The notes below the pieces were generated by a model. It was not told the origin of the DNA. It ran no database searches and saw nothing but the letters and a program-made list of their open reading frames with translations. From Pseudomonas rhizophila (GTDB lineage: Bacteria > Pseudomonadota > Gammaproteobacteria > Pseudomonadales > Pseudomonadaceae), in assembly GCF_003033885.1 (NCBI RefSeq), contig NZ_CP024081.1, positions 3,929,735 through 3,993,734 on the forward strand: a stretch of 64,000 nucleotides of DNA. Reading direction: 5' to 3'. Below are positions 48,171 through 64,000 of this stretch, one piece after another. The stretch's first letter is position 1, and the number at the start of each line of letters is the position of its first letter. The position numbers and the translations under genes were made by a program.

Positions 48171-51100
48171 ATGACCACTGCAACTACGCCGTTATTATTT
48201 CCCGAGGTATTGGCCGCCAATAACCTGGAGGACTTGAACGCCCCCCACGGATTGACCCAGGCCGACCTCGACTGGCTGCACCACGTGTCCCTGTCCAACC
48301 ACACGCTGCGCGCCGCACAGACGCCCCCCATGTCTGCCGAAACGATTCGCTTGCAGGTCGACGCAAACGCGCCGATCCCGCTGGCCGGCTGCCTTGTGCT
48401 CAAAGCGCTGACAGACGCAGACGCAGCGCAGACCCAGCCTGCGTTCCTCTACACGCCCTACGGCGGAATCAGAAAATTCGACAGCCCCGAAGCTCTCGAA
48501 GAGAAGATGGAAGCAATGCTGGACAGTCCAGCCGAGCGTGACGATCTTTTTCGGCTGTTATCGATTTCCCAGCGCGCCGAACTCAACAGCACCTCCGCGA
48601 TCAGAACGACCCGGCAACGTATCGACGGTGACGTCTTCAACACCCTGGTCGAGTCCATCGAGTTCGCTCAAAGCCTCAACGCCCGAACAATGGTGGATGA
48701 ACTGATCAAGTTACCCTCCCTCAGTACGATGCTTGACGCGATCTTGAATGAGGTGCTGTCCAACTTTGATCATCGACAGACCCGCGTAACCATGAGCACG
48801 TGGAGTAGCGTGGGGAGTCAGAAGGCAAGCCAGTTGACCAGAAGCATGACACTCAGCGAGGCGGTCCTGGCCTACTTCCACAGCCAGGGTCGGCCCGCCG
48901 GGCAAGACGTTGACTTCATTCATCCAGGCATCACCGTATCACCGCAAAACAAGCGTCAATGGGAGAGCGTGTTGAAGGTGACCGCCAGCAACCTGATCCC
49001 CAGCCTTGCCCACTGTATCGACGCTTATTGGGACGCCACCGGCCCGTTCAATACCTCGCGCCGGCGCTTTCTTTCCCAAGTTCTCAGCGATGCGCTACAA
49101 GCCACGATTCTGATCAAGCGGGAGAAAAGACAACTCACCGAGGCCCACGCCCAGGAACTGCTGCGGCTGTACAGGCCATCTCGCCCGGACGAACCGCTGC
49201 TGTTTATCGAAACCCTGCGTCTTTGGGAATATGAGCCGCTCTACGTAGAGCTGGCGGGTTCTTTGATGATCAGCGCCAAGGGACACTATCTCTATACCCC
49301 CAGTCACGGCCTTGAGAAAGTCGACAACTACCTGGGTTTCAAGGATGCACTGCTCAATACCCCCACCGGCGCAGGGCGAAAGGAAGAACTCTACAGTCTG
49401 CTCAGCCTGGAGGAGCGCAACCGCTTCCTGCGCTTTGACGATCCCCAGGTGTCAGGTAAGGCGGTGACGTGGCCGGTATTCGAGTCTCTGGCTGATGCGA
49501 TCATCGGCAAACAGTCGAAAAACCTTCATTTCGCAATGGAGATGTCCCGCCAGGGGGACGTGGACGTCCACGCGCTCGTTGACAAGGCCCTGGACATACG
49601 CAGCCTGATCGGCAAAAACCTGCTGACGCAAAAAACCGCTGGACACTGGGGCACGCAGCCGGTTTTTTACGGGGACCTGCGCCCGTCCAATTTCATGGCT
49701 GATCAACTGGAGAGAAAGATCAAGAGCTACGCCAGTGTCGAAGAGGCCTTGAATGCCGAACTGAGCCGATTGCCACTCTCCAGCGACACCTCGCTGCGTC
49801 ACGCATTGAAAGGCCTTCTTCCTAAACTGACCAACGTCTTTTCCCTGGGAATACGTGCAGAAGCCGAACTCAGAGAACTCAACGCAACCCTGTCTCCCGC
49901 CGCGCGCGACCTTATCGCCGCGGTCTTTGCCTTTGATGCCGAATATCCGGACCGCACTCAACGCATCGGGGTAAAGGGCTTCCGGCCCGATGTCTATTCG
50001 CTGAGGCTGGCATGTACCGAGGACGGCAAAACCGTCTCTTTGCCGCTGGCCAATTGTTTCCTGCTGACCGAACGCGGCGGGCTGGATACGCCTCATTCCG
50101 GCCTGGCAATTCTCTGGACACCGGCCGACGGTTTACAAGTGTTTGCCTCAGTCGAACTTGCCACCCAGCAATTGAATCGCCACCTGCTCGACTCACGAAA
50201 GCGCTCTGGTCTGCTCGCCAACCTCTGGCCCGCCCAACGCAAGCCCCATGGACGTTATCAACTGGATGTGTTTGAGCTGATCGAAGACAACGTGCTGCTC
50301 AATCGGATGAAGTCGTTCAACGCACTGTTCGAGGCCCAATACAGGTATCTGAGCACGCTAAAGAGCGGGGACTGGCAACTGACAGGGCCTGAACGGGTAA
50401 AAAGCCTGGGCACATTGCTTGAAAAGGCCGCGCCTACCAATCTGACACACGCCACACGTATCGCCCAGGCGATCCGCTTGCAACAGAAACTCCCCGCCTG
50501 GCTTGGCGCCGCACCACTTGAAGAACAGCGCCTACAGGTTGACCTGCTTGAGCAATACAGAAGCAGTGTCGACGATGACGAGGATTATCTGGACGGTATC
50601 GAGCCCCTGCACACCTATGTGAGCAAAAAGCTCAAAGCGCTCCTGGATGCGCGTTTCGCCGTAAAAGACCTGGATCCTGCCACCCTGTTGATCACCCCGA
50701 ACCATGCGTTGGCGGGGCCCGCCAGCAGCTTGACCGAGTTCGCCCTCAATCATGCCGACTTCACTCAAAAGACAGGCTTCAGGGTGTCCTCGACCTCCGG
50801 GCGCGCGTTGCCCGACAGCCTGAACGAGACGGCTGTCAGACAAATGCTGCTGTCGTTGGACATACCCTCTGCCTATAAAAAGATCGTACTGGACGAACTC
50901 TCCACTACCTCGACCGATGGCCAGAAAAGAAAGCAGCGATTTCGCCGGCAGTTGCCCTGGCAACTGTTGCAACATGCCCACGCACTGCATCTACAACAGC
51001 ACCTTTCTCCCACAGGGTTTGACTTGATTCGCCAGGTACTGGACATGCCGGATGCCATCGCACGCCAGGCAGTGGACGGCGCCAGCGCGTTGATTCGTCC

Positions 51101-53009
51101 ACTGGAGCTGATCAAAACCCGGGGAGCTGCGGCGATCAAGGCACTGGGGCTCTACCTGATCGGATCAAGCACCGATGATACTGCCCCCCATGTGCTGTAT
51201 TCCCCCTACCATGCGGGCCACAACTTCACCGAGTTCAAGGACCAGGGCAGCCTCATTGCAGCCTTCAACACGCCGGGCGCGTTGCAGGACCTGCTGATTC
51301 GTCGACTTCCCGAAAGCCAGCAAGCCACGTTCAAGAACCTGTTCGCCGCCACGGTCGGTTCTCTATCGGAAATCACCCTGGCTTCCAATCCGATCAAGAC
51401 CAACCTGTTCGATGTATTGTTCAACGACAATACAACCCTGTTATCGGACATGCTGAGCGCACAAACAGAAAAAAACCGCCAGTTTGACTGGGAAACGGCC
51501 CTGCATTTGTTCAGCGCCGGCGTCAAACTGGTGGGGCGGCAGTTGCAAGGCAAACTGACGTTTATCGAAACGCTTTGGGAAAGTTACCAAGACTTCAAGG
51601 CCTCTTCTGAATCCCTGCAGCAGCATGACTGGAAAGCAGGCTTGCACGACTTCATCGCCGGCGCGGCAGAGATGGTCTCACTTGGCTTCCTGAATCGCGA
51701 CGACACCTTCGGCCTGCTCGACCCGATAAGTCCCGGCACGCAGAACGCCTCCATGGCGACCCCGCCCCGCTGGAAAGACATCGCCTCCACCGCCCCGACG
51801 CGCACCAACCTGCGGGCCTTCGAAGCCACGGAGGTGAGCCTGCACAACCTGCAGAAGAACCGGATCGACGGAACCTACAGGGCCCCAGGGTCCGACAAGC
51901 TTTACGCACCTGTTGCCGGCATGGTTTTTCAGGTGGCCAAAGCCAATCAGGTCTGGCGCGTGGTCCATGAACAGGGAGAGGGCCCAATACTGAGGCAGTC
52001 GCCTGATAACCAGCAATGGACCGTAGACCCACAACGGCAGACCATTCGCTACGGCAAAGTGATGTCAACGCTGGCCAATTCCTACAGCGACTACAAGGCT
52101 TCAACGTCGCTCAACATTGAGGCTCGGGGCATGGCGCAAATACGCCGCAAATACCCGGCTTACGCAAACATGATCGAGCAGGCCCTGGAGGTGGCCAGGT
52201 ATTACTCATTCAACGCCCTGCATAATCTGGATCAGATCAAACATCAGGTCCCGCCGGGCTCTCGGCTGGATACCTTCCTGAAGACGTTTTTTGGGGTGAG
52301 GACAGTCGACGCCAGCCTGATCAAGAAAATACACACCGCCGTCTCGCCGCTGTGCCGGGCATTGGCTGATCCGTCCTGGGAAACCCGCAACGCCAAGCGC
52401 CTTGTAATCGGCCGTTTGAAATACATGGACGATAGAGCCACCGCATTCGTGCTCGAACCGGAAAAGGCAGGAAGAATCTATCTGACCCAGTATTTCTTCG
52501 AGGTCGGATTGGATTGGTACAAGGACGCGGTCCCGGATTCCTTCAATGTCGATGCCCACGCCCAGGCCGCGGTGCTTATCCACGAAGTTTCTCATCAGCT
52601 TTTCGACACGCTCGATATTGTCTATCTGGACGCGGCACTGCCGTTTCTGGACCTGATTTCCAATGCCACTCAGTTCGGACATTCAAAATACAATTATCAA
52701 AAGGACCAGCAACGCAACGGGCTGTCGTTGACCACGCCACGATCCAAACTGTTCATGGGCTGGGACAGTGCAGCCGGCGGGCTCAAGAGCCTGGAGCTTT
52801 TCCCCGAGCATCGGGATATGGCCCGGGAAATCCTGAAGATGACCGGCGCCAGAAGCATGAGCGAGGCGCGCAGTATCTTTCTGGATCCAGGTTCACCGAC
52901 AGCACGCATCGACGTGATCTTGCGAAACGCCGACTCCATGACGCTACTCATCTGTGAGCTGGGTCGACAGCTGGACTCCCCACCCTTGAGTCCCGCTGCC
53001 ACGTTTTAA
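48171..53009 (+). CDS. Giant toxin-like protein with HEXXH zinc-protease motif
   Basis: This 1612-residue protein is similar in style to the large dermonecrotic-toxin-type proteins of Pseudomonas. Four imperfect copies of a module starting near YTPYGGIRKFDS occur at about residues 91, 371, 645 and 1007 (LYTPYGGIRKF, LYTPSHGLEKV, LWTPADGLQVF and LYSPYHAGHNF). A C-terminal domain carries IHEVSHQLFDT, whose HEVSH at residues 1471-1475 is the HEXXH zinc-metalloprotease motif. There is no signal peptide. It has no evident immunity or secretion neighbour. Protease and toxin activity are predictions from motif and family style. Confidence 0.7.
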   Translation: MTTATTPLLFPEVLAANNLEDLNAPHGLTQADLDWLHHVSLSNHTLRAAQTPPMSAETIRLQVDANAPIPLAGCLVLKALTDADAAQTQPAFLYTPYGGIRKFDSPEALEEKMEAMLDSPAERDDLFRLLSISQRAELNSTSAIRTTRQRIDGDVFNTLVESIEFAQSLNARTMVDELIKLPSLSTMLDAILNEVLSNFDHRQTRVTMSTWSSVGSQKASQLTRSMTLSEAVLAYFHSQGRPAGQDVDFIHPGITVSPQNKRQWESVLKVTASNLIPSLAHCIDAYWDATGPFNTSRRRFLSQVLSDALQATILIKREKRQLTEAHAQELLRLYRPSRPDEPLLFIETLRLWEYEPLYVELAGSLMISAKGHYLYTPSHGLEKVDNYLGFKDALLNTPTGAGRKEELYSLLSLEERNRFLRFDDPQVSGKAVTWPVFESLADAIIGKQSKNLHFAMEMSRQGDVDVHALVDKALDIRSLIGKNLLTQKTAGHWGTQPVFYGDLRPSNFMADQLERKIKSYASVEEALNAELSRLPLSSDTSLRHALKGLLPKLTNVFSLGIRAEAELRELNATLSPAARDLIAAVFAFDAEYPDRTQRIGVKGFRPDVYSLRLACTEDGKTVSLPLANCFLLTERGGLDTPHSGLAILWTPADGLQVFASVELATQQLNRHLLDSRKRSGLLANLWPAQRKPHGRYQLDVFELIEDNVLLNRMKSFNALFEAQYRYLSTLKSGDWQLTGPERVKSLGTLLEKAAPTNLTHATRIAQAIRLQQKLPAWLGAAPLEEQRLQVDLLEQYRSSVDDDEDYLDGIEPLHTYVSKKLKALLDARFAVKDLDPATLLITPNHALAGPASSLTEFALNHADFTQKTGFRVSSTSGRALPDSLNETAVRQMLLSLDIPSAYKKIVLDELSTTSTDGQKRKQRFRRQLPWQLLQHAHALHLQQHLSPTGFDLIRQVLDMPDAIARQAVDGASALIRPLELIKTRGAAAIKALGLYLIGSSTDDTAPHVLYSPYHAGHNFTEFKDQGSLIAAFNTPGALQDLLIRRLPESQQATFKNLFAATVGSLSEITLASNPIKTNLFDVLFNDNTTLLSDMLSAQTEKNRQFDWETALHLFSAGVKLVGRQLQGKLTFIETLWESYQDFKASSESLQQHDWKAGLHDFIAGAAEMVSLGFLNRDDTFGLLDPISPGTQNASMATPPRWKDIASTAPTRTNLRAFEATEVSLHNLQKNRIDGTYRAPGSDKLYAPVAGMVFQVAKANQVWRVVHEQGEGPILRQSPDNQQWTVDPQRQTIRYGKVMSTLANSYSDYKASTSLNIEARGMAQIRRKYPAYANMIEQALEVARYYSFNALHNLDQIKHQVPPGSRLDTFLKTFFGVRTVDASLIKKIHTAVSPLCRALADPSWETRNAKRLVIGRLKYMDDRATAFVLEPEKAGRIYLTQYFFEVGLDWYKDAVPDSFNVDAHAQAAVLIHEVSHQLFDTLDIVYLDAALPFLDLISNATQFGHSKYNYQKDQQRNGLSLTTPRSKLFMGWDSAAGGLKSLELFPEHRDMAREILKMTGARSMSEARSIFLDPGSPTARIDVILRNADSMTLLICELGRQLDSPPLSPAATF

Positions 53010-53205: not shown

Positions 53206-54207
53206 ATGACCGAACATACACTCTCGGAAGCCGAATACGACGCCATTACCGATGCGGCCGCGCATTGGTGCATGCGTTTGCACGCCGTCGACTGCACCGA
53301 CGCCGAACGGCTGGCATTCAAACAATGGCACGATGCCGATCCCCTGCACGCTTTCGAATACCAAGCCATGCTGGAGATCTGGGCCGTGGCCGATCATCTT
53401 CCGCGTGTCGAAGCGGCACCATCTCCCGCGCCAATACCGCGACCTCGGTCCCGCTGGAGTCGGATGGCTGTCGCAGCCGCAGTGCTTGTGCTGGGCATAC
53501 CCCTGGCCGCCTACACGGGCTGGAACCTGGGCTGGGTTGCCAACTCCTACGAACGATTCGAAGCGGATACAAGCGTGCGTCACATCACCCTGGGTGACGG
53601 CAGCCAGGTAGAACTGAACCTGGGCAGTGAACTGGTATTTGCCAATTACAAGAATGAGCGTCGGGTGACGCTGAAAAAGGGCGAGGCGTTTTTCGACGTC
53701 AGCCATGACACACAACACCCATTCGTTGTACGGGCCGGCCAGGGCCAGGTGCGCGTGACCGGCACTCGCTTCAATGTATGGATGTATCAGGATCAGGTCC
53801 GGGTGACGCTGGTGGAGGGCTCAGTATGGGTGACCAGCAACCAGGCACTTGCCAGTAACGGCTCGCAACTGTCGCCGGGCATGCAGGCCAGCTACAAAGC
53901 TGGCGACTACCAACCGCAAATCCGTGAAGTCGATGCCAACGACAGCTCGCTGGCGTGGCGCAACGGCAAGCTGGTGCTGGACAACCTTGCCCTCAGCGAT
54001 GCACTCCCGCTGATCAATCGTTATCTCGAGCATCCCGTCATGCTGGCCGACAACAGCACGGGCGCCCTGCGTATCGGTGGTATCTACAACCTCAACGAAG
54101 TGAAGAACCTGGTGCCTTCGTTGCCCAAAGTCCTGCCGGTTTACCTGACGCAGAACCAGGACGGCAATCCAGTCCTCAACTCCATCGGTCAACGGCCGTC
54201 CAACTGA
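53206..54207 (+). CDS. FecR-family anti-sigma factor, possible FpvR
   Basis: The 333-residue protein has the FecR plan: an N-terminal cytoplasmic domain (AAHWCMRLHAVDCTDAERLAFKQW), one transmembrane helix (MAVAAAVLVLGIPLAAYTGW, about residues 87-106) and a periplasmic FecR domain (SYERFEADTSVRHITLGDGS, RVTGTRFNVW). Such proteins control an ECF sigma factor in answer to a TonB siderophore receptor. No sigma or receptor gene is adjacent. It faces pvdQ; in P. aeruginosa fpvR lies close to pvdQ, so a pyoverdine anti-sigma role is plausible but unproved. Confidence 0.85.
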   Translation: MTEHTLSEAEYDAITDAAAHWCMRLHAVDCTDAERLAFKQWHDADPLHAFEYQAMLEIWAVADHLPRVEAAPSPAPIPRPRSRWSRMAVAAAVLVLGIPLAAYTGWNLGWVANSYERFEADTSVRHITLGDGSQVELNLGSELVFANYKNERRVTLKKGEAFFDVSHDTQHPFVVRAGQGQVRVTGTRFNVWMYQDQVRVTLVEGSVWVTSNQALASNGSQLSPGMQASYKAGDYQPQIREVDANDSSLAWRNGKLVLDNLALSDALPLINRYLEHPVMLADNSTGALRIGGIYNLNEVKNLVPSLPKVLPVYLTQNQDGNPVLNSIGQRPSN

Positions 54208-54256: not shown

Positions 54257-56611
54257 TCAGTGCGCGGCCACCCTGCCCGCCTCATCACGCTCACGGATGA
54301 TCACCGCCTGATAGTGCGGATCGGCTTTGATCTGCTGTTCGGTGAACGGTAGCGCACTCCATTGCTTCTTCGAGAATGCCTGGGTCTGGTCGGCCGAATA
54401 CGGCGATGCGGGGTCGCTGGAAATGGAAAATGCCAACAGACCTTCAGCCCGAGGTCCTTTGCCATCAAAACTCACCACTTGCAGATAGCTGGTGCCGCTG
54501 ACCACTTCCCGTTTACCGTTGGCCCCTGGCACGCTCTGAATCGCGTTATAGATCCCCAGCTCACCGGGGCCGCCGTGGATTGGCGTCTGCCGGCTGCCAC
54601 TGCTGGCAACCTGGATGTCCTGCCAGCGGCTATCCTTCGGCAATCCGGCGGCCTTCACAGAGGCCTGCGAGGCCAGCATGGCTTGACGCACAGCCTTGTG
54701 CACCGGGGCACGCTCAATCGCCAGGCCGTTTGGAGTATGTCGCGGGTCTTGCGGATCGAACGGGACACGCCATGAATCAGGCACCCCCTGCAACTGCGCC
54801 ATGATGCGCTGGAAATGAATGAAGCCCAATCCGCTGTCCAGGCCAGCGGTTCGATCCCAGACCCTGAGATCGTTGCACACCTGGGTCAACGTCACGGCAT
54901 CGGCCCCCAGGTCACCGGCACAAAAGCCCAGCAGGTCGGGCATCACCTGATCAGCAAGGTAGACCTGGTCGTCCATGACCATACGCTGCAAGTCATCGAC
55001 CTTCACCGGCCCGTCCTTGGCCAGTTGACCCAGCCGCTGCAGAGCAAAACGCGCACGCAGGCCCAGCGGTTGGTCTTGCTGGCTGATCAAGGGCGAATAA
55101 CCGGACAAGGGTTGTGAAGGGTTGACCATCCAGGCCGAATCGTTGGAATTTTGCACATAATCGCGGCGCAACAACTGCGGTAGCTTGTCGGCGGCGTAAA
55201 TGCCTTTCTGCACGGCCTCGGGATCGATATCCCAGGCGCATTCGCCGCGTGAGCCGTCCAGTACGATGAGTTGCAGCCCTGCCCGCGGGTCGCTGCAGCG
55301 GGCCAACTTGTCGGCATCGACGTTCGGTACCACCGACACGTTCATGTAGAGACTTTGCCCCTGATCGTCCACCGCCAGGGTGTTGACCCATGGAATACCG
55401 TGGATCTCATGGACCGCACTCTGCAAGTCCGTGAGCGTGACGGCTTTGTTCATGGCGTACCACTGGGCGAGCACCCGATCATTTTCCCGGTTCGCATCGC
55501 GCAGGCTGTAGGCGAACTTGTCATCCCAGTCCAGCCGGCCGGGCCATTGCACGATCGGACCGAACTGCGAGCCGTAGACCACCCGCGAAACGCTCTGCAC
55601 CTGGCCATCGGGTTGTTTGATGTCCACCGTCACCGTCTGTTGGCTCATCGGTACGGATTGACCATCGAGCAGGTAGCGGGTCGGGTCTTTCGGGTCGAGT
55701 TGCAGACGGTACAGCGTGAAATGTTTAGAGGTGTCGACGGTGTGGGTCCAGGCCAGGTGCTGGCTGAAACCGATGTTGATCACGGGCAAGCCTGGCAGGG
55801 CCGCGCCCATGACGTCCAGTTTGCCGGGAATGGTCAGGTGCATCTGGTAAAAACGCATGCCCCCCAGCCATGGGAAGTGCGGGTTCGCCAGCAACATCCC
55901 ACGCCCGTTGAAGGAGCGCTCACTGCCGATGGCGACCGCGTTACTACCACGCTCCAGGGCGAAACGCTGCTGCCGGGTCGCAGCGCCTGCGAAACCTGTC
56001 CTCGGCTCGCCAGCGTCCGCCGTCGCTTGTGGCGGCTGAGCGCCCGCCAGGGCTTCGGCGAACTGGCCGACGCCACCTTCCACCAACAGGCGCCGGGTCA
56101 GTTTGACCAGGTCCAGCGCGGTGATCGGCCGCACCCACTCACTGGCACATTGCTCGGGCAGGCCGATGGCCTTGCGTTCGGCCAGCGCGCGGTTGAAACC
56201 CGCCACATAGCCTTCGACCAGTTGCTGTACTTGAGGCGTCTGGGCTTGCCAGAAACCGGAAACGGCTTGCGGCGTGTTGAGCCAGTTGAAAAATACATCG
56301 CTGACGCGGTTCTCCCGCTGTTCGAGCGTGACCTGCTCCGGGCCGAAGTAGCGCGAGCGTTGACCATTGACCGTGACGATCTCATTGGCCAGCAGGCATA
56401 AATTATCCTCAGCGTACGCATACCCGATGCCGTAGCCCAACCCGCGCTCATCCTGAGCCCGGATATGTGGCACGCCAAAACTGGTGCGGCGGATCTCGGC
56501 ACTGGCCTGTTCTTTATCACTTTGAGCGCTGGCGACGCAGCTGAACCCCAGGCTCACTGCGAAAAACACACCTGCGAGGCCAAACCTCGATAACTGCCCG
56601 GACATTCTCAC
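54257..56611 (-). CDS. pvdQ: Acylase PvdQ (pyoverdine maturation / AHL acylase)
   Basis: This 784-residue periplasmic Ntn-hydrolase has a signal peptide (GVFFAVSLGFSCVASAQS). It is expected to autocleave before the nucleophilic serine near residue 223 in ERGSNAVAIG, giving alpha and beta chains. PvdQ removes the fatty acyl chain from the pyoverdine precursor and can hydrolyse long-chain acyl-homoserine lactones. Conserved RTSFGVPHIRAQDERGLGYG and ANPHFPWLGGMRFYQ occur at the expected places. The start is probably GTG 56611 or ATG 56605, with AGGAG before them. A PvdS-type promoter element may precede it. Confidence 0.9.
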   Translation of the reverse strand: MRMSGQLSRFGLAGVFFAVSLGFSCVASAQSDKEQASAEIRRTSFGVPHIRAQDERGLGYGIGYAYAEDNLCLLANEIVTVNGQRSRYFGPEQVTLEQRENRVSDVFFNWLNTPQAVSGFWQAQTPQVQQLVEGYVAGFNRALAERKAIGLPEQCASEWVRPITALDLVKLTRRLLVEGGVGQFAEALAGAQPPQATADAGEPRTGFAGAATRQQRFALERGSNAVAIGSERSFNGRGMLLANPHFPWLGGMRFYQMHLTIPGKLDVMGAALPGLPVINIGFSQHLAWTHTVDTSKHFTLYRLQLDPKDPTRYLLDGQSVPMSQQTVTVDIKQPDGQVQSVSRVVYGSQFGPIVQWPGRLDWDDKFAYSLRDANRENDRVLAQWYAMNKAVTLTDLQSAVHEIHGIPWVNTLAVDDQGQSLYMNVSVVPNVDADKLARCSDPRAGLQLIVLDGSRGECAWDIDPEAVQKGIYAADKLPQLLRRDYVQNSNDSAWMVNPSQPLSGYSPLISQQDQPLGLRARFALQRLGQLAKDGPVKVDDLQRMVMDDQVYLADQVMPDLLGFCAGDLGADAVTLTQVCNDLRVWDRTAGLDSGLGFIHFQRIMAQLQGVPDSWRVPFDPQDPRHTPNGLAIERAPVHKAVRQAMLASQASVKAAGLPKDSRWQDIQVASSGSRQTPIHGGPGELGIYNAIQSVPGANGKREVVSGTSYLQVVSFDGKGPRAEGLLAFSISSDPASPYSADQTQAFSKKQWSALPFTEQQIKADPHYQAVIIRERDEAGRVAAH

Positions 56612-56703
56612 GTTCACTCCTGATCCAATACTTTCTAAAACCAGGACGGCTGCCTGGGAATTCACATACCGCGTGCCTGGCCGGAATGTGCCTCCCTTGA
56701 AAA

Positions 56704-56872: not shown

Positions 56873-57253
56873 ATGCATGACGCGCGTCAGCCCATGGAGG
56901 GCAAGCCCAGGTCGACCGGCGTTCCGGCGACAGCCACTCACAACCTGTTCGACAGGCCGGCAGAACGAGGTAGCAATGAACACATCAGGCTTTTGCTCAA
57001 GAGCTTCGGCCTCAGAACCAGCCTGATTCGCCTCAAGGTCATCGATGCATTGCTCAAGGCCGCCGATGAAAACCGCAGCCTGGGTGTGCGGGGCGTACAC
57101 AGTCAACTGCTGGGGCTGGACATTCCATTGTCCTTCCTCAGCGTGCGCGAGGTGTTGAAGCGCCTGTGCAGCGAGGGTGTCGTCACCCTTAACCCCGATA
57201 AGACCTACAGTTTGCACCGCAAGGCCATGCACGTGCTCCAGGGCGGGGAGTGA
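56873..57253 (+). CDS. Fur-like winged-helix protein (short)
   Basis: This 126-residue protein has a winged-helix section similar to the Fur N-terminal domain (LLKSFGLRTSLIRLKVIDALLKAAD, GVHSQLL, FLSVREVLKRLCSEGVVTL). It does not have the histidine- and cysteine-rich metal and dimer domain of real Fur, and ends shortly after. Related short Pseudomonas proteins carry the name Fe2+/Zn2+ uptake regulation protein. Whether it binds metal is doubtful from this sequence. It follows pvdQ divergently, but a direct link is not shown. The start has GTAAGGAGTTTTTGC before the ATG. Confidence 0.78.
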   Translation: MHDARQPMEGKPRSTGVPATATHNLFDRPAERGSNEHIRLLLKSFGLRTSLIRLKVIDALLKAADENRSLGVRGVHSQLLGLDIPLSFLSVREVLKRLCSEGVVTLNPDKTYSLHRKAMHVLQGGE

Positions 57254-57759: not shown

Positions 57760-58995
57760 ATGCAAACCTTGCTGGCAACTCTTTCGCCAATACGATTGAC
57801 AGGTTTTTGCCTGGCTATCGCTCTTTTCGAACTATTGACTTATCTGGCCAGCGACCTGGTCATGCCGGCCATGCTCGCGGTGACCCGGGAACTGGATGCG
57901 CCCGCGGATCAAATCCCCTACGCCTTCAATCTGTATCTATTGGGCGGTGTTCTGCTGCCGTGGCTGATCGGTCCGTTATCCGATCGCTATGGGCGTCGTG
58001 CATTCATGCTCGCCGGTTGTGCCGGTTTTGTCCTGGCTTGCGCAGCGATCACCCTGGTCACCCACATGCAGGGATTCAACGGGCTTCGTTTGATCCAGGG
58101 TATGGGGCTGGGTTTCGTGATCGCGGTCAGCTACCCGGCCATACAGGAAGTATTCAACGAGTCGGACGCTGTGAAGGTCATGGCGTTGCTGGGCAATCTC
58201 GCCCTCCTCTCGCCCTTGCTGGGGCCGCTGCTGGGTGGCTTGCTGCTGCAATGGCTGTCCTGGCGCGAGCTGTTCATGTTGCTGGCAGGCCTGGGGGCAG
58301 TGAGCTGGCTGGCCTTATGGACATTCATGCCCCGAAGCCCCGGTCTGGCGCACTCCTGCCCCCGGCAACCGGCCCTGGAGCCGTTCGAACTGCGCACACT
58401 CATCAGGCGCTATGGCGCGCTGCTGAGTCACTCCGGCTTCATGGCCGCGTGCGTGGCGCTGGGGTTGATGAGCCTGCCGCTGATTGCCTGGATCGGTCTG
58501 TCCCCCCTGTTGCTGATCCAGGACCAGGGCCTGTCGCCCCTGGTCTATGGCCTGTGGCAAATCCCGGTGTTCTCGGGCGTGATCCTTGGCAATCTCCTGC
58601 TCAATCACCTGGTGGAGCGGGTGGGCGTGCGCGGGGTATTGCGCTACAGCCTGTGGCCCTTGTCTACCGGCCTCATCGCACTGGTGATCGCCAGCCCGTT
58701 CAACCTTGGCGTACCCGCGCTGGTCAGCGGCCTGGCGCTCTACGCCCTGGGGCTGGGCATGGGCAACGCGGCCTTGTATCGATTGGCGCTGTTCGCCAGC
58801 GACGACAGCAAAGGGCTGGTCTCGGCCATGGTCGGGATGATTTCCATCGCAGTGATGAGCACCGCCGGCTCACTGCTCGCGCTGCTGGGCGCCGGAACAA
58901 GCCTGAACGCCTTTGCCTTGATGGTCGGCATTGCCGGGCTCAGCTGCCTTGTGGCGCTGCGTCTGTTCATGTCGCAACCGGCCGCTCACGTCTGA
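57760..58995 (+). CDS. MFS multidrug/metabolite transporter (MdfA-like)
   Basis: The 411-residue protein has about 12 transmembrane helices and the MFS DHA1 motif GPLSDRYGRRAFMLAGC after helix 2, with the antiporter-like GPLLGGLLLQWLSWR in the fifth helix region. MdfA-like proteins export lipophilic compounds using the proton gradient. It begins the operon: the LuxE-like gene follows after 27 bases. I therefore infer export of the product made by the following enzymes, not general drug resistance. Confidence 0.85.
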   Translation: MQTLLATLSPIRLTGFCLAIALFELLTYLASDLVMPAMLAVTRELDAPADQIPYAFNLYLLGGVLLPWLIGPLSDRYGRRAFMLAGCAGFVLACAAITLVTHMQGFNGLRLIQGMGLGFVIAVSYPAIQEVFNESDAVKVMALLGNLALLSPLLGPLLGGLLLQWLSWRELFMLLAGLGAVSWLALWTFMPRSPGLAHSCPRQPALEPFELRTLIRRYGALLSHSGFMAACVALGLMSLPLIAWIGLSPLLLIQDQGLSPLVYGLWQIPVFSGVILGNLLLNHLVERVGVRGVLRYSLWPLSTGLIALVIASPFNLGVPALVSGLALYALGLGMGNAALYRLALFASDDSKGLVSAMVGMISIAVMSTAGSLLALLGAGTSLNAFALMVGIAGLSCLVALRLFMSQPAAHV

Positions 58996-59022
58996 AAATC
59001 CCCTCCCTGAGGAACGTTACCC

Positions 59023-60150
59023 ATGATTCATTTTCCCCACGCCGATGCGCTGTGTGCATTGGCGCAGCCTTACGATCCCGATTCGGTACCTGCTGGTCTG
59101 TTTGATCGGGCCATGGCCCAGATCAGCCTGTTCCATTGCCACCACACCCCCGGCTACGAACACTGGCTCAACGCCAACGGCCTGGCGGTAGAGGATCTGG
59201 AGCATTTGACTGACTGGTCGCGCTTGCCGCCCATCTACGCCAATTACTTCAAACAGCGCTTGTTGCTCAGCCCCACCGGCGAGAACGCGCTAGAGCTGAC
59301 ATCCTCCGGCACCAGCGGCCAGAAAAGCCGCATGCGCTACGACGAGCGCAGCATGGCCGCGGCCCAGGGCATGGTGGCGCGTATCTTTGAACATTACGGC
59401 TGGTTCACGCCGGATTCGCCCTGCAACTACCTGTTGTTCAGTCACGAACCGGAGAAGGTCAATCACGTCGGCACCGCTCATACAGACCAGTTCTTGCGCA
59501 GCTTCGCGCCGGCCAATCGGATTTTTCATGCGCTGCGGCGCACCGGAAAAGGTCATGAGTTCGATGTCTTTGGCGCGATCCGGGCCCTTCAGGAGTTCGC
59601 CGAAGAGGGCCTGCCGGTGCGGATCTTTGGCTTCCCGGCGCTGCTGTGTCATGCGCTTGAGCGCATGCGTGAAACCGCGACGCCGAACCTCAAACTTGCC
59701 CCCGACTCCCTGGTATTTCTGGGAGGCGGCTGGAAAAAACAGGCCGCCCAGGAGATCCCCCGCCACGAGGTCTATGAACACATCACCCGGCAACTGGGCA
59801 TTGAGGCGCACCGCTGCCGCGACGGTTACGGTGCCGTCGAGCACGCCGTGCCGTACATCGAATGTGCGCATCACAGGTTTCATGTGCCGGTCTATTCGAA
59901 AGCTTTCATACGTCACCCCTCGAACTTCAGCGTCCAGCCCTTCGGCGAGGCGGGATTGTTGTCGTTCGTCTCGCCTTACATCTCTTCCAGTCCCGCCCAT
60001 GCCGTGGTGATGAGCGACCTGGCGACCCTGCATCCGGCCAATTGTGAGTGCGGCCTGAACACCCAATGGTTCGAGCTGCACGGCCGGGCCGGCACCAGTG
60101 CCAGCCGAAGCTGCGCCATGGCCGCTTCCGAATTGATCAAGGAGAATTGA
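59023..60150 (+). CDS. LuxE-like acyl-protein synthetase
   Basis: The 375-residue protein belongs to the LuxE/PaaK adenylating family. The nucleotide motif is LTSSGTSGQKSRMRYDERS (about residues 92-110). The C-terminal end has SRSCAMAASELIKEN, with cysteine at 364, the same position as the acylated Cys364 of Vibrio LuxE. LuxE takes a fatty acid through an acyl-AMP and holds it on that cysteine before passing it to LuxC. A LuxC-type domain is encoded one base downstream. The acid used here is unknown. No luciferase genes (luxAB) are present. Confidence 0.85.
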   Translation: MIHFPHADALCALAQPYDPDSVPAGLFDRAMAQISLFHCHHTPGYEHWLNANGLAVEDLEHLTDWSRLPPIYANYFKQRLLLSPTGENALELTSSGTSGQKSRMRYDERSMAAAQGMVARIFEHYGWFTPDSPCNYLLFSHEPEKVNHVGTAHTDQFLRSFAPANRIFHALRRTGKGHEFDVFGAIRALQEFAEEGLPVRIFGFPALLCHALERMRETATPNLKLAPDSLVFLGGGWKKQAAQEIPRHEVYEHITRQLGIEAHRCRDGYGAVEHAVPYIECAHHRFHVPVYSKAFIRHPSNFSVQPFGEAGLLSFVSPYISSSPAHAVVMSDLATLHPANCECGLNTQWFELHGRAGTSASRSCAMAASELIKEN

Positions 60151-60151
60151 T

Positions 60152-62563
60152 ATGTATCTCATCAATGGCCAACTGCACGCTGATCTGCCCCTCGATACAG
60201 CCCTTGAACGCCTGCAGACGCAACTGCCTGCTCTTCTGGACGCACCGCCCCCCAGTGATAGCGTGCTCGATTGTGCGCAGGCGTTCGCACAGATGCTGCG
60301 GGCCCCAGAACAAACTCCGCTCCTGGACGACGACCAGCGCCAGGCACTGATCGCCTTCTGCGAACGCAAGCATTTGAGCCGCAAACTCGAACGGGAGCTG
60401 GGGGCGGACGCGCGCTCGCTGCGCCGAATCGACTATAGCGATGGCCCTTTCGAAAGCTGGCAACCCCTGGGGCTGGTGGTGCATGTCACCCCCGGCAATG
60501 CTCCGCTGCTGGGGTTCTTCGCGGCACTGGAAAGCCTGCTGGCGGGCAACGTCAACTGGCTGCGACCCAGCACGCGCGATGCAGACCTGACGGCGCGGGT
60601 GCTGGCGACGTTCCTCGATTGCGACCCAAGCGGCCAGTTGCGCGATTACGTTGCGGTGCTGCCAGTGCCCTACCACGAGTGCCGGCGTCTCTTCGCGCTG
60701 GCCCAGGGCGTCAGCGCCTGGGGTGGCGAGACAGCACTCAAGGCCATGCGTGACCAGCTTCCAAGCGGCTGCCGCTGGATCGATTGGGGACATCGCATCA
60801 GCTTCGCCTATGTCACGCCGCAAGCCGCCAACGAGCAGGCGCTGGACAGTCTTGTGGATGAGGTCTGCCGCCACGATCAGCAAGCCTGTTCCAGTCCCCA
60901 GTGGCTGTTGGTGGACAGCGATGAGCCGGTTCAGATGCAGGCACTGGGTGACGCCCTGGCTGACGCATTTGAACGACGCGCCGGACAATGGCCAGCGTTG
61001 GAAACCAGTGCAGCCGAAGCGTGCGAGATCACCACCCGCACGGCACTTGCCCGACTCGACCACAGCTTTACAGGACAAACCGGCCAGATTTGGGAAGGCC
61101 ACGGTTGGCGCATTATTTGGGAGCATCACCGCGACCTGTTGCCATCGCCGCTGTTTCGCACGCTTTTGTTACGACCGGTGCCCCAAGGGCTGATCACACA
61201 AACCCTGCTGCCCTGGCGAAACGTGTTGCAGAGCTGCGCGCTGATCTGTGAACCGCAACGGGCGCCTGAACTGGCACGTTGCGTATTAGCCGCCGGCGTG
61301 ACCCGCATCTCGGCAACCGCAGACATCCAGCAAGGCTACGAGGGCGAGCCTCACGACGGCGTCTACGCGCTGCAACGATTGAGTCGTCGGGTATCGGTCG
61401 GTCTTGAACCTGGTGTCGCCAGTCATCGTGTGACACTGGACGCCCCGCCGACCACAACACCCATTTCACCCTCGACGCCGATCATGAACAAAGCGGCATT
61501 CCTGGCGCTGCCTGCCGCCCCCCAGGCCCAGCTGTTTTTCCGTTCAGGTGGTAGCAGCGGCGCACCGGTGCTGTCGCCCTACAGCTACCGCGATTTTGAT
61601 CGTCACATGCGGGCCGCCGCCGACGGACTGCGCGCGGCCGGCCTGGATCCGGCGAAGGATCGGGTCATGAACCTGTTTTATGGCGGCAACCTCTACGGCG
61701 GCTTCTTCAGTTTCTCGAAAATACTGGAGCACATGAACGCCGTGCATTACCCCATGGGCGCGACGTCAGATGCGGACTTCGAAGAGATCGCACGGATGAT
61801 CGTCGCTCACAAGGTCAATACCCTGGTGGGCATGCCAAGTACCTTGCAGCGCCTGTTTTCCAGCCAGCGAGAAACCCTTCAAGGCTACGGCGGCGTGCGC
61901 AAAGTCATGCTGGGCGGCGAGCACCTGGGGCCAGGCTGCCGTCAGTTGCTTGAGGACTGCGGCGTGACAAGTATTCGCTCAGCCATCTATGGCAGCGTCG
62001 ACGCGGGTCCCCTTGGCCATGCCTGCACTGCCAGCGGCGAGGGTGTATTCCACCTCATGGAGGACATTCAACACCTGGAGATCGTACAGCTGGAACTGGA
62101 CGCTCCGGTCGCGTCGGGGGAAACCGGACGGCTGCTGTTCACTTCGCGCAGACGCCAAGCGCAGCCCCTTCACCGCTACGAAGTTGGTGATTGCGGGCGC
62201 TGGCTCACCGCTCCCTGCCCGTGTGGCCTGGAGTCACCCCGGTTCGAGTTGCGCCAGCGCCACGGCGCCCTGATACGCATCGTGACGTACCTGATCAATA
62301 CCCACGAGCTGGCTGAGCAGGCACAAACGGCCATTCAGATCGTACTCGATTACCACAGCAGCGGCTGCGAACGCCTGTTGATTCGCGCCGATGGCGATGC
62401 ACAAACGGTCCGGAGCCAGGTCATGGGCCTCGAACTGCTGTCCACGCTGGTGGAGTCCGAAATGCTCGTACTGGACGTGCAATCCTGTCCGGCGACAAGT
62501 TTCGAACATAACAAACACAGCGGCAAAGTACCGCTGGTGATTGATCGCAGAATCACCGCTTGA
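60152..62563 (+). CDS. Fusion of LuxC-like acyl reductase and PaaK/LuxE-like adenylating domain
   Basis: The 803-residue protein begins with a LuxC domain (about 1-430): LGLVVHVTPGNAPLLGFFAA and the catalytic cysteine C246 in HDQQACSSPQWLLV, which reduces an acyl enzyme to an aldehyde with NADPH. The second part (about 450-790) is an AMP-binding PaaK/LuxE-type domain with LFFRSGGSSGAPVLSPYSYR (residues 461-480), MPSTLQRLF and YEVGDCGRWL. Such a C-terminal partner is not found in ordinary LuxC. The order suggests coupled activation and reduction in one polypeptide. The start ATG is one base past the LuxE stop. Substrate is not known. Confidence 0.8.
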   Translation: MYLINGQLHADLPLDTALERLQTQLPALLDAPPPSDSVLDCAQAFAQMLRAPEQTPLLDDDQRQALIAFCERKHLSRKLERELGADARSLRRIDYSDGPFESWQPLGLVVHVTPGNAPLLGFFAALESLLAGNVNWLRPSTRDADLTARVLATFLDCDPSGQLRDYVAVLPVPYHECRRLFALAQGVSAWGGETALKAMRDQLPSGCRWIDWGHRISFAYVTPQAANEQALDSLVDEVCRHDQQACSSPQWLLVDSDEPVQMQALGDALADAFERRAGQWPALETSAAEACEITTRTALARLDHSFTGQTGQIWEGHGWRIIWEHHRDLLPSPLFRTLLLRPVPQGLITQTLLPWRNVLQSCALICEPQRAPELARCVLAAGVTRISATADIQQGYEGEPHDGVYALQRLSRRVSVGLEPGVASHRVTLDAPPTTTPISPSTPIMNKAAFLALPAAPQAQLFFRSGGSSGAPVLSPYSYRDFDRHMRAAADGLRAAGLDPAKDRVMNLFYGGNLYGGFFSFSKILEHMNAVHYPMGATSDADFEEIARMIVAHKVNTLVGMPSTLQRLFSSQRETLQGYGGVRKVMLGGEHLGPGCRQLLEDCGVTSIRSAIYGSVDAGPLGHACTASGEGVFHLMEDIQHLEIVQLELDAPVASGETGRLLFTSRRRQAQPLHRYEVGDCGRWLTAPCPCGLESPRFELRQRHGALIRIVTYLINTHELAEQAQTAIQIVLDYHSSGCERLLIRADGDAQTVRSQVMGLELLSTLVESEMLVLDVQSCPATSFEHNKHSGKVPLVIDRRITA

Positions 62564-62615
62564 TTGTTTTCCCGTGTAATTGAATAAGCGGACGTTAGAG
62601 TCCGAGAGAACCCTG

Positions 62616-63890
62616 ATGAGCACCTCTTTACCATTCGAACAATGGCTCGCCCATATTCGTACGCATTCAACGTTCTACCGCAAGTCTTTACGGCATTTAC
62701 CCGCGCAGAATTGCGCTCTGGAGGATTTCCCCATTGTCGACGTCGCCGACTATTGGGCCGGCAGTCATGACCTGGACCATTGGGACGTACTGACCGGCAA
62801 AGTCGAAGACGCGCTGATCTACAAAACCGGCGGCACGACCAGTCAGGGGAAACTGTCGGTGTACACCCGCGCTGAATGGCAGCGGATGCTCAACTGCTTC
62901 GGTCAGAGCCTGTCAGCGCAATTGAGGGCTGGTGATCGAATCGCCAACCTGTTCTTTTCCGGAGACCTGTACGCCAGTTTCCTGTTCATTCATGGCGCCC
63001 TTGGCAAAGTCGATGTAGCCATCACCGAATTCCCGTTCACCGGGGCGGTGGATCTCGACGTGCTGACCGAGGCGGTGACCGGCCACCGCATCAATGTGCT
63101 GGCCGGTGTGCCTGCGCACCTGCTGGCGTTTGCCGACCATTTGGATCAACAGGGACGAACGCTGCCCGGCATCACCACCGTGCTGTTCGGCGGAGAAAAC
63201 CTGTTCGACAGCCAGTTGCCCGCGTTGCAGCGCGCCTTCCCACAGGCACGCTTCGCCTCCATCGGCTATGCCAGCGTCGACGCCGGGCTGGTGGGCGCCA
63301 GCGCACCGGACTGCAACCTGGGCGAGCACCGCGTGTTCGGCGAACAGATACGGGTAGAGATCATCGATGAACTGAGCGGTGAGGTCATCCAGGCGTGCGA
63401 TCGGCCCGGCAATCTGGTGGTGACCAACCTCACCCGGACCCTGATGCCCATCGTGCGGTATCCGGTGGGCGACCGAGCGTGCTGGCGCGAGCCGGTTGGC
63501 ACCCCGCGACGCAAGTTCGCGCTTCAGGGCCGCAGCGCGAAAAGCCAGCGAGTGCGGGTAGGCGTTTTCTCGCTGTTTTCGCAGGAAATCAGCGACATCA
63601 TCCGCAGCATTGGCGGTGACCTTCAGTGGCAATTGATCATCGAGCACGCACAGAACAACGACCGCGTGTTGCTCAAGTGGGTGCCTGGCGGGCAAACCCA
63701 GGCTTGCCAGTCACTCTCCAACACATTGAAAGCTGCCTTGACCGCACAGTATCCGGGTATCGACCAACTCGACCTGAACGTCCAGGCCTGCGCCTTGCAA
63801 GCGTTGGAACGCCATCCACGCTCTGGCAAGCACCTGTCGATCATCGACCGCCGCACCTACGCTCCGTTGACAGCGAGGCACGCCGGATGA
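62616..63890 (+). CDS. PaaK/LuxE-like acyl-activating enzyme
   Basis: The 424-residue protein is another LuxE/PaaK-type adenylate-forming enzyme. The nucleotide motif is YKTGGTTSQGKLSVYTRAEW (about residues 69-88), and the later FGGENLF and YASVDAGLVG follow the PaaK pattern. It probably activates a carboxylic acid for transfer to CoA or a carrier, but its C-terminal acceptor region is not the LuxE type. Start ATG 62616 was chosen; the open frame runs 12 codons further upstream. It overlaps the next gene by four bases (ATGA). Confidence 0.78.
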   Translation: MSTSLPFEQWLAHIRTHSTFYRKSLRHLPAQNCALEDFPIVDVADYWAGSHDLDHWDVLTGKVEDALIYKTGGTTSQGKLSVYTRAEWQRMLNCFGQSLSAQLRAGDRIANLFFSGDLYASFLFIHGALGKVDVAITEFPFTGAVDLDVLTEAVTGHRINVLAGVPAHLLAFADHLDQQGRTLPGITTVLFGGENLFDSQLPALQRAFPQARFASIGYASVDAGLVGASAPDCNLGEHRVFGEQIRVEIIDELSGEVIQACDRPGNLVVTNLTRTLMPIVRYPVGDRACWREPVGTPRRKFALQGRSAKSQRVRVGVFSLFSQEISDIIRSIGGDLQWQLIIEHAQNNDRVLLKWVPGGQTQACQSLSNTLKAALTAQYPGIDQLDLNVQACALQALERHPRSGKHLSIIDRRTYAPLTARHAG

Positions 63891-64000
63891 GCAGCGTGGT
63901 CATCCGAGCGTTCAGGCCCACGGATGGCGTCGGAACCAGCGAATTGTTCCGCCGGGTTTACGGCGATCACTACGTCTCACCAGACGTCTACCTGCCACAC
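63887..64000 (+). CDS. Possible GNAT-family acetyltransferase, 3' end outside window
   Basis: Only the first 38 codons are seen: MSSVVIRAFRPTDGVGTSEL, then a VYGDHYVSPDVYLPH end. The VVIRAFRPTDG opening and the VYGDHY segment resemble GNAT N-terminal strands, but too little is present to be sure. It overlaps the PaaK-like gene stop by four bases, so it is in the same operon. If it is a GNAT, it could transfer an acyl group to or from the operon's product. Confidence 0.5.
   Translation, partial: MSSVVIRAFRPTDGVGTSELFRRVYGDHYVSPDVYLPH

Follow-up and report, generated by a model that had tools for sequence, protein, structure and literature searches.

We analysed a stretch of 64,000 nucleotides from Pseudomonas rhizophila (NCBI RefSeq assembly GCF_003033885.1, contig NZ_CP024081.1, positions 3,929,735 to 3,993,734 of the forward strand), referred to here as the window, and found that an operon at its right end very probably belongs to the leup (leupeptin) family. 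Leupeptin is Ac-Leu-Leu-argininal; Photorhabdus, Xenorhabdus and Klebsiella assemble it with discrete ligases. We lean towards leupeptin itself as the main product of the operon in Pseudomonas as well. The pathway is known; what is new is its spread in Pseudomonas and the predicted product of the Pseudomonas version. Passages of PMC8283571, PMC11480411 and PMC11212599 credit the leup cluster of Klebsiella michiganensis CAV1374, Xenorhabdus bovienii and Photorhabdus to Li et al. 2020, a paper that also stands in the reference lines of PMC9177418 and PMC10676414. The available parts of the searched literature, which did not include Li et al. 2020 itself, contained no report of a leup cluster in Pseudomonas.

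Gene content of the operon

The operon consists of five genes, whose four enzymes are named here after the Klebsiella cluster:

57760-58995, + strand: MFS transporter, MdfA / Bcr-CflA-like drug efflux family (ATG start; Pfam MFS_1, 3.9e-35)
59023-60150, + strand: LeupA, LuxE-type acyl-protein synthetase/adenylating enzyme (ATG start; Pfam LuxE, 5.8e-26)
60152-62563, + strand: LeupB, LuxC-PaaK fusion in a single protein (ATG start; Pfam LuxC, 9.4e-105, and AMP-binding, 3.9e-8)
about 60251-61390, + strand: LuxC reductase part of LeupB (Pfam LuxC)
about 61424-62560, + strand: PaaK-like adenylating domain of LeupB (Pfam AMP-binding)
62616-63890, + strand: LeupC, PaaK-like adenylating enzyme (ATG start; Pfam AMP-binding, 1.8e-7)
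63887-64000, + strand: LeupD, GNAT-family acyltransferase, first 114 bases (ATG start; truncated at the window end)

The gaps between successive genes are 27, 1, 52 and -4 bases. This tight packing on one strand had been described in a first-pass annotation, made from the letters of the window, and was confirmed by the open reading frames and Pfam. The same annotation had proposed to extend the sequence downstream. In the host genome, which is one contig of 5.95 Mb, the leupD gene is complete (L004:8887-9831) and stops at the equivalent of window position 64831; the full protein matches Pfam Acetyltransf_1 at residues 46-132 (8.9e-12). It is followed by a methyl-accepting chemotaxis gene (by eye), by DUF411 and VTT-domain genes (Pfam) and, beyond these, by a hydrolase gene and glycogen-metabolism genes (by eye). 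The same-strand block of this kind thus ends with the GNAT gene. A promoter scan found 0 sites, where shuffled sequences averaged 2.3, and a terminator scan found 6, where shuffles averaged 8.4.

Correspondence to the leup cluster of Klebsiella michiganensis

The available text of PMC8283571 places leupABCD of K. michiganensis CAV1374 at nucleotides 315353-321183, gives primers in leupA and leupB, and describes a transporter adjoining the cluster. The forward primer in leupA encodes the residues EDSDSQ, and among the 120 LuxE homologues listed only the protein P0045 has this motif (residues 19-24). Counted from the printed end of the primer (315425), P0045 starts at 315353, where the published cluster begins. 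On the same anchoring the leupA stop codon ends at 316480. As an exact pattern, the leupA primer had 0 matches in 369 genomes of the class. The reverse primer in leupB encodes EQLKDH, and the LuxC-PaaK protein P0138 of K. michiganensis has EQLKDH at residue 47, where EQLKD is found in 70 of the 120 fusion homologues listed. Judged from the primer coordinate (316620), leupB begins at 316482. This is one base past the leupA stop, and the gap in the window is the same. Since the primer residues and coordinates fit P0045 and P0138, leupA is identified as the LuxE gene and leupB as the LuxC-PaaK gene.

After a LeupB of 802 residues, 2293 bases remain to the published end of the cluster, compared with 2268 for the PaaK and GNAT genes in the genome of the window. 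A PaaK-like gene and then a GNAT gene come after leupB in all of the 80 loci compared (see below), leupC and leupD of K. michiganensis being compared by this remaining length only. An MFS gene lies directly 5' of leupA in the window; the Klebsiella cluster, too, has a transporter next to it.

The first-pass annotation had regarded the block as an undescribed cluster. The leupA and leupB genes, their order and spacing, and the total length match the K. michiganensis cluster, and an undescribed aldehyde pathway is rejected because of this gene correspondence. Its interpretation thus has to be divided: the aldehyde-forming chemistry and the conserved block stand, while the claim of novelty falls by a condition which that annotation itself had set, a match to a described cluster.

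Catalytic residues and proposed pathway

In the lux system an acyl-adenylate is passed to a cysteine of LuxE, then to a cysteine of LuxC, and is released as the aldehyde; these cysteines carry the acyl group. In an alignment with solved LuxE, Cys364 of LeupA falls on the C-terminal cysteine; Cys246 of LeupB lies within a DQQAC motif shared with solved LuxC. By this analogy, both residues are presumed to be acyl carriers. In alignments that take in Streptomyces sequences and the divergent locus L118, the LuxC cysteine is invariant (88/88), and the LuxE cysteine is present in 87 of 88 rows, with a gap in the remaining one. Tyr613, Asp680 and Lys792 of the PaaK domain of LeupB are each found in 88 of 88 rows, and in LeupC Asp286 is invariant (85/85) and Lys405 is found in 84 of 85 rows (one gap). 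LeupC matches the solved PaaK structure at 3.8e-13 and is probably an amide ligase. The best NCBIfam model for the MFS protein is the MdfA family, with a score under its cut-off, and the protein is a probable exporter.

For LeupD, the structure of the homologue from a close relative (L005, 314 residues) was predicted from a 41-row alignment with a mean predicted local distance difference test score (pLDDT) of 90.7. Its best matches among solved structures are GNAT N-acetyltransferases, e.g. YncA, RimI and phosphinothricin acetyltransferase. The match spans about 160-185 alignment columns and leaves out the second half of the protein, so that LeupD is predicted to fold as a GNAT enzyme over the matched part.

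To build an N-acetyl tripeptide aldehyde, a carboxyl group has to be activated three times, twice to form an amide bond and once ahead of the reduction; a single reduction and a single acetylation complete the set. With three adenylating domains, a reductase and a GNAT protein, the operon equals the demand of Ac-Leu-Leu-argininal. We propose that the product is a peptide aldehyde of the leupeptin family, probably N-acyl-Leu-Leu-argininal or a close relative, formed without a non-ribosomal peptide synthetase (NRPS). LeupC and the PaaK half of LeupB would adenylate carboxyl groups for the two amide bonds. LeupA would then adenylate the finished peptide acid, hold it on Cys364 and hand it to Cys246 in the LuxC half of LeupB, where NAD(P)H would serve to reduce the peptide acyl group to the aldehyde. 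N-acetylation would fall to LeupD, and the MFS protein would export the product, which could then trap serine and cysteine proteases. The reduction is assigned to LeupA and the LuxC half because of the analogy with LuxE and LuxC of lux, and the amide bonds are given to the two PaaK domains on a like basis; which ligase forms which bond, the residues used, the export and the biological target are all inferred. According to the available text of PMC11212599, X. bovienii SS-2004 makes leupeptin with a reductase and separate AMP-dependent ligases and uses no NRPS for it. The steps that the first-pass annotation had suggested, namely activation of an acid, its reduction to an aldehyde not used for light, activation of a second acid, and modification and export of the product, fit the leup clusters.

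That annotation had placed these steps in a small-molecule pathway with an acid-derived aldehyde. Read as a pathway of the LuxCE type, the operon would reduce a fatty or aromatic acid to a non-peptide aldehyde. The Pfam matches to LuxE and LuxC and the presence of both cysteines agree with this, and PaaK and LuxC pairs are known to reduce aryl acids in the grixazone and griseoluteic acid pathways (GriC/GriD and EhpF/EhpG). However, all 80 named loci also have two more domains of the ANL type and a GNAT gene. Together with the correspondence of the genes to leupA and leupB, this makes a non-peptide aldehyde very improbable.

A remnant of a luciferase operon was also considered and ruled out. 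The window lacks any gene of the luciferase family, and both proteins stay far below the curated NCBIfam equivalog cut-offs (LuxE, 60.6 against 550 bits; LuxC, 58.1 against 750 bits). The genome has four matches to Bac_luciferase (PF00296), a broad family that is matched in the E. coli control too; the nearest lies about 127 kb from the window's operon, which upholds the earlier statement that luxAB is missing here.

Conservation and distribution

When named genomes were scanned with the fusion protein, a check which the first-pass annotation had suggested, 127 relatives were returned, and gene order was counted in the best 80 loci. LuxE, LuxC-PaaK, PaaK and GNAT genes follow each other on one strand in 79 of them (by BLAST match). 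The 80th, the Pseudomonas locus L015 (10001-12362), keeps the order with the fusion gene split in two pieces. The MFS gene is matched directly 5' of leupA in all 63 named Pseudomonas loci and ahead of the four enzyme genes in two of the 17 non-Pseudomonas loci (L066, Parachitinimonas; L072, a metagenome-assembled genome of Enterobacterales). It was not matched there in the other 15 (14 Xenorhabdus and L082), L069 and L082 being uninformative as they start less than 1 kb from the LuxE gene. In Xenorhabdus szentirmaii (L083) the upstream region has an MFS gene of another kind.

That unrelated enzymes stand side by side here by chance is practically negligible as an explanation, and nothing was found in its favour. 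The order is kept in 80 of 80 named loci (with the one split fusion), although the surroundings of the operon differ between Xenorhabdus and Pseudomonas; it is kept as well in three Pseudomonas copies at other sites, and the block is present or absent as a whole at one site (see below).

Of 298 sampled Pseudomonas genomes, 61 have a match to the fusion, the genome of the window among them. In a class-wide sample of 369 genomes only the window's own genome matched, and in another family 1 of 395 genomes matched, with the divergent locus L118. The prediction is that about a fifth of the sampled Pseudomonas genomes, a few of which have broken copies, can make a protease inhibitor of the leupeptin type. 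If this is true, it would give a simple candidate explanation, in chemical terms, for common soil and plant bacteria interfering with cysteine and serine proteases of the host. It also gives a likely role to proteins named only acyl-protein synthase, acyl-CoA reductase or phenylacetate-CoA ligase.

In two of the sampled genomes (G281 and G294) the fusion gene is in two pieces, and in G110 it has one internal stop. Together with L015, these split or interrupted genes may indicate that the operon decays in some strains, or they may be assembly errors.

A plasmid collection gave matches in two Salmonella records and in five Streptomyces/Streptantibioticus records, one of the latter five covering only 46% of the query. 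One conjugative plasmid of Salmonella carries all four genes (L115:4467-10630); the gene immediately upstream of them resembles the MFS transporter over no more than 77 residues. On a Streptomyces plasmid (L117:2818-12356) the order is PaaK, MFS, GNAT, LuxE and LuxC-PaaK, and the five genes adjoin three which, by annotation, encode peptidase inhibitors of family I36. The GNAT protein of this plasmid has no BLAST match to LeupD and is recognized as GNAT by Pfam. The rearranged version suggests that a peptide aldehyde route without NRPS may be present in actinomycetes too. Right after leupD, but on the opposite strand, Xenorhabdus stockiae and a relative have an APH-family phosphotransferase gene (L075:14674-15450, by Pfam; L082:6664-7470, by eye).

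Chromosomal site

The following genes lie to the left of the operon in the window:

48171-53009, + strand: 1612-residue protein with two stretches of ToxA_N (dermonecrotic toxin N-terminal; Pfam)
53206-54207, + strand: FecR gene, left neighbour (Pfam)
54257-56665, - strand: PvdQ bifunctional acylase, left neighbour (NCBIfam, 1424 bits, exceeding the cut-off)
56873-57253, + strand: small Fur-like gene (by eye; no Pfam hit), left edge of the insertion site

The Fur-like gene may be a PA2384-like neighbour of pvdQ. In the fetched flanks of the 63 named Pseudomonas loci, some of whose contigs end too soon to show the flanking genes, the Fur-like gene and DUF411 were found in 61 loci each, against 53 for pvdQ and 47 for the chemotaxis gene. 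The Fur-like gene was matched in 115 of 149 Pseudomonas genomes, with the operon either present or absent. Among the operon-positive genomes of this set it lies about 4 kb or less from the fusion in 31 of 34. In the three exceptions (G104, G110 and G127; loci L149, L150 and L151) the Fur-like gene is elsewhere, and LeupB is 52-54% identical to that of the window. All three have the four enzyme genes in order; neither the MFS gene nor the Fur-like gene of the site was matched beside the operon. These copies form a second, off-site lineage.

Among 30 Fur-like loci returned, 20 continue with the MFS gene of the operon and are all fusion-positive, and the 10 without it are all fusion-negative. In four of these 10 (L121, L122, L126 and L142) the site is empty, with the chemotaxis or DUF411 gene within about 1 kb. 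The operon is present or absent as one block at the Fur-like site. A recent foreign island was considered and rejected: the GC content of the operon, 0.616, is near the 0.604 of the window's first 57 kb, and the site is the same in the 63 named Pseudomonas loci wherever the flank is visible.

Divergence of the Pseudomonas operon and its probable product

LeupA of the window is 62% identical to P0045 and 61-62% identical to the homologues of X. bovienii and Photorhabdus temperata. LeupB shares 50% identity with P0138 of K. michiganensis (801 columns) and 52% with Xenorhabdus. A LeupB tree of 47 proteins (the window, 33 of 84 loci and 13 database proteins; midpoint root) contains three clades: one with Klebsiella, one of Xenorhabdus and Chromobacterium, and the main Pseudomonas clade (21 rows, support 100/99). 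Streptomyces and L118 fall outside these three, whose common fork is drawn open. The clade with Klebsiella also takes in a single Pseudomonas protein, P0221 of strain UFMG81. Since the main Pseudomonas branch is not nested in a clade with known producers, the product could differ in detail.

Several observations weigh against the assignment to leup, or against leupeptin as the product. The printed range of the leupA primer covers 23 positions for 21 letters, and anchoring at the printed start puts the gene start 2 bases off. P0045, unlike P0138, comes without an organism name, and sequences of Klebsiella LeupC and LeupD are absent among the matches listed. P0045 and LeupA of X. bovienii share 68% identity and are closer to each other than to the window. 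LeupD is weakly conserved, the protein of the window being 34-39% identical to LeupD of Xenorhabdus and Salmonella. Tyr218 of LeupC, a tyrosine in the window, varies among 85 rows (67 Tyr, 18 Cys). The LuxE protein could be one of the amide ligases instead of a PaaK domain. Klebsiella and Xenorhabdus LeupB stand in clades apart from the main Pseudomonas one, so that the residues or the acyl group could differ, and the product named here for Pseudomonas is a prediction from the genes.

A product of the same chemistry, i.e. an N-acyl peptide aldehyde with one or more different residues, which may cyclise to a pyrazinone or act in signalling, has to be weighed as a less probable outcome that still deserves attention. 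The well-supported separation of the Pseudomonas clade and the low identity of LeupD argue for it. The available text of PMC11480411 reports that leup operons also give lysine and homoarginine relatives of leupeptin as well as pyrazinones, so that the known clusters are relaxed and their products vary. Against a different product, LeupB of the window is as near to Klebsiella and to Xenorhabdus as these two are to each other (51-52%). Leupeptin itself is still the product we slightly prefer. More tentatively, and rather doubtfully, many Pseudomonas might carry a third branch of leup, which makes a peptide aldehyde with residues of its own. This could serve in the rhizosphere to block proteases of plants, nematodes or insects, or it could be converted into a pyrazinone signal.

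Comparison with known systems

Compared with the leup cluster of K. michiganensis, the operon is alike in the LuxE gene followed by LuxC-PaaK, in the gap of one base between them, in the fitting total length and in the adjacent transporter. It differs in that the Pseudomonas type of the window falls mostly in its own clade and has its own site near pvdQ. With luxCDABE it shares the logic of LuxE and LuxC and their cysteines; it adds the fused PaaK domain, a second PaaK protein and a GNAT protein, and the window contains no luciferase gene. GriC/GriD and EhpF/EhpG likewise combine a PaaK-type ligase with a LuxC-type reductase, but act on aryl substrates and have no LuxE, no second ligase and no GNAT protein. 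The peptide aldehydes antipain/MAPI and livipeptin of Streptomyces are similar products of the arginal type and are made by NRPS or tRNA-dependent pathways (available text of PMC10548850). These Streptomyces pathways use an NRPS, or a tRNA-utilising enzyme together with an NRPS-like protein, whereas leup uses discrete ligases.

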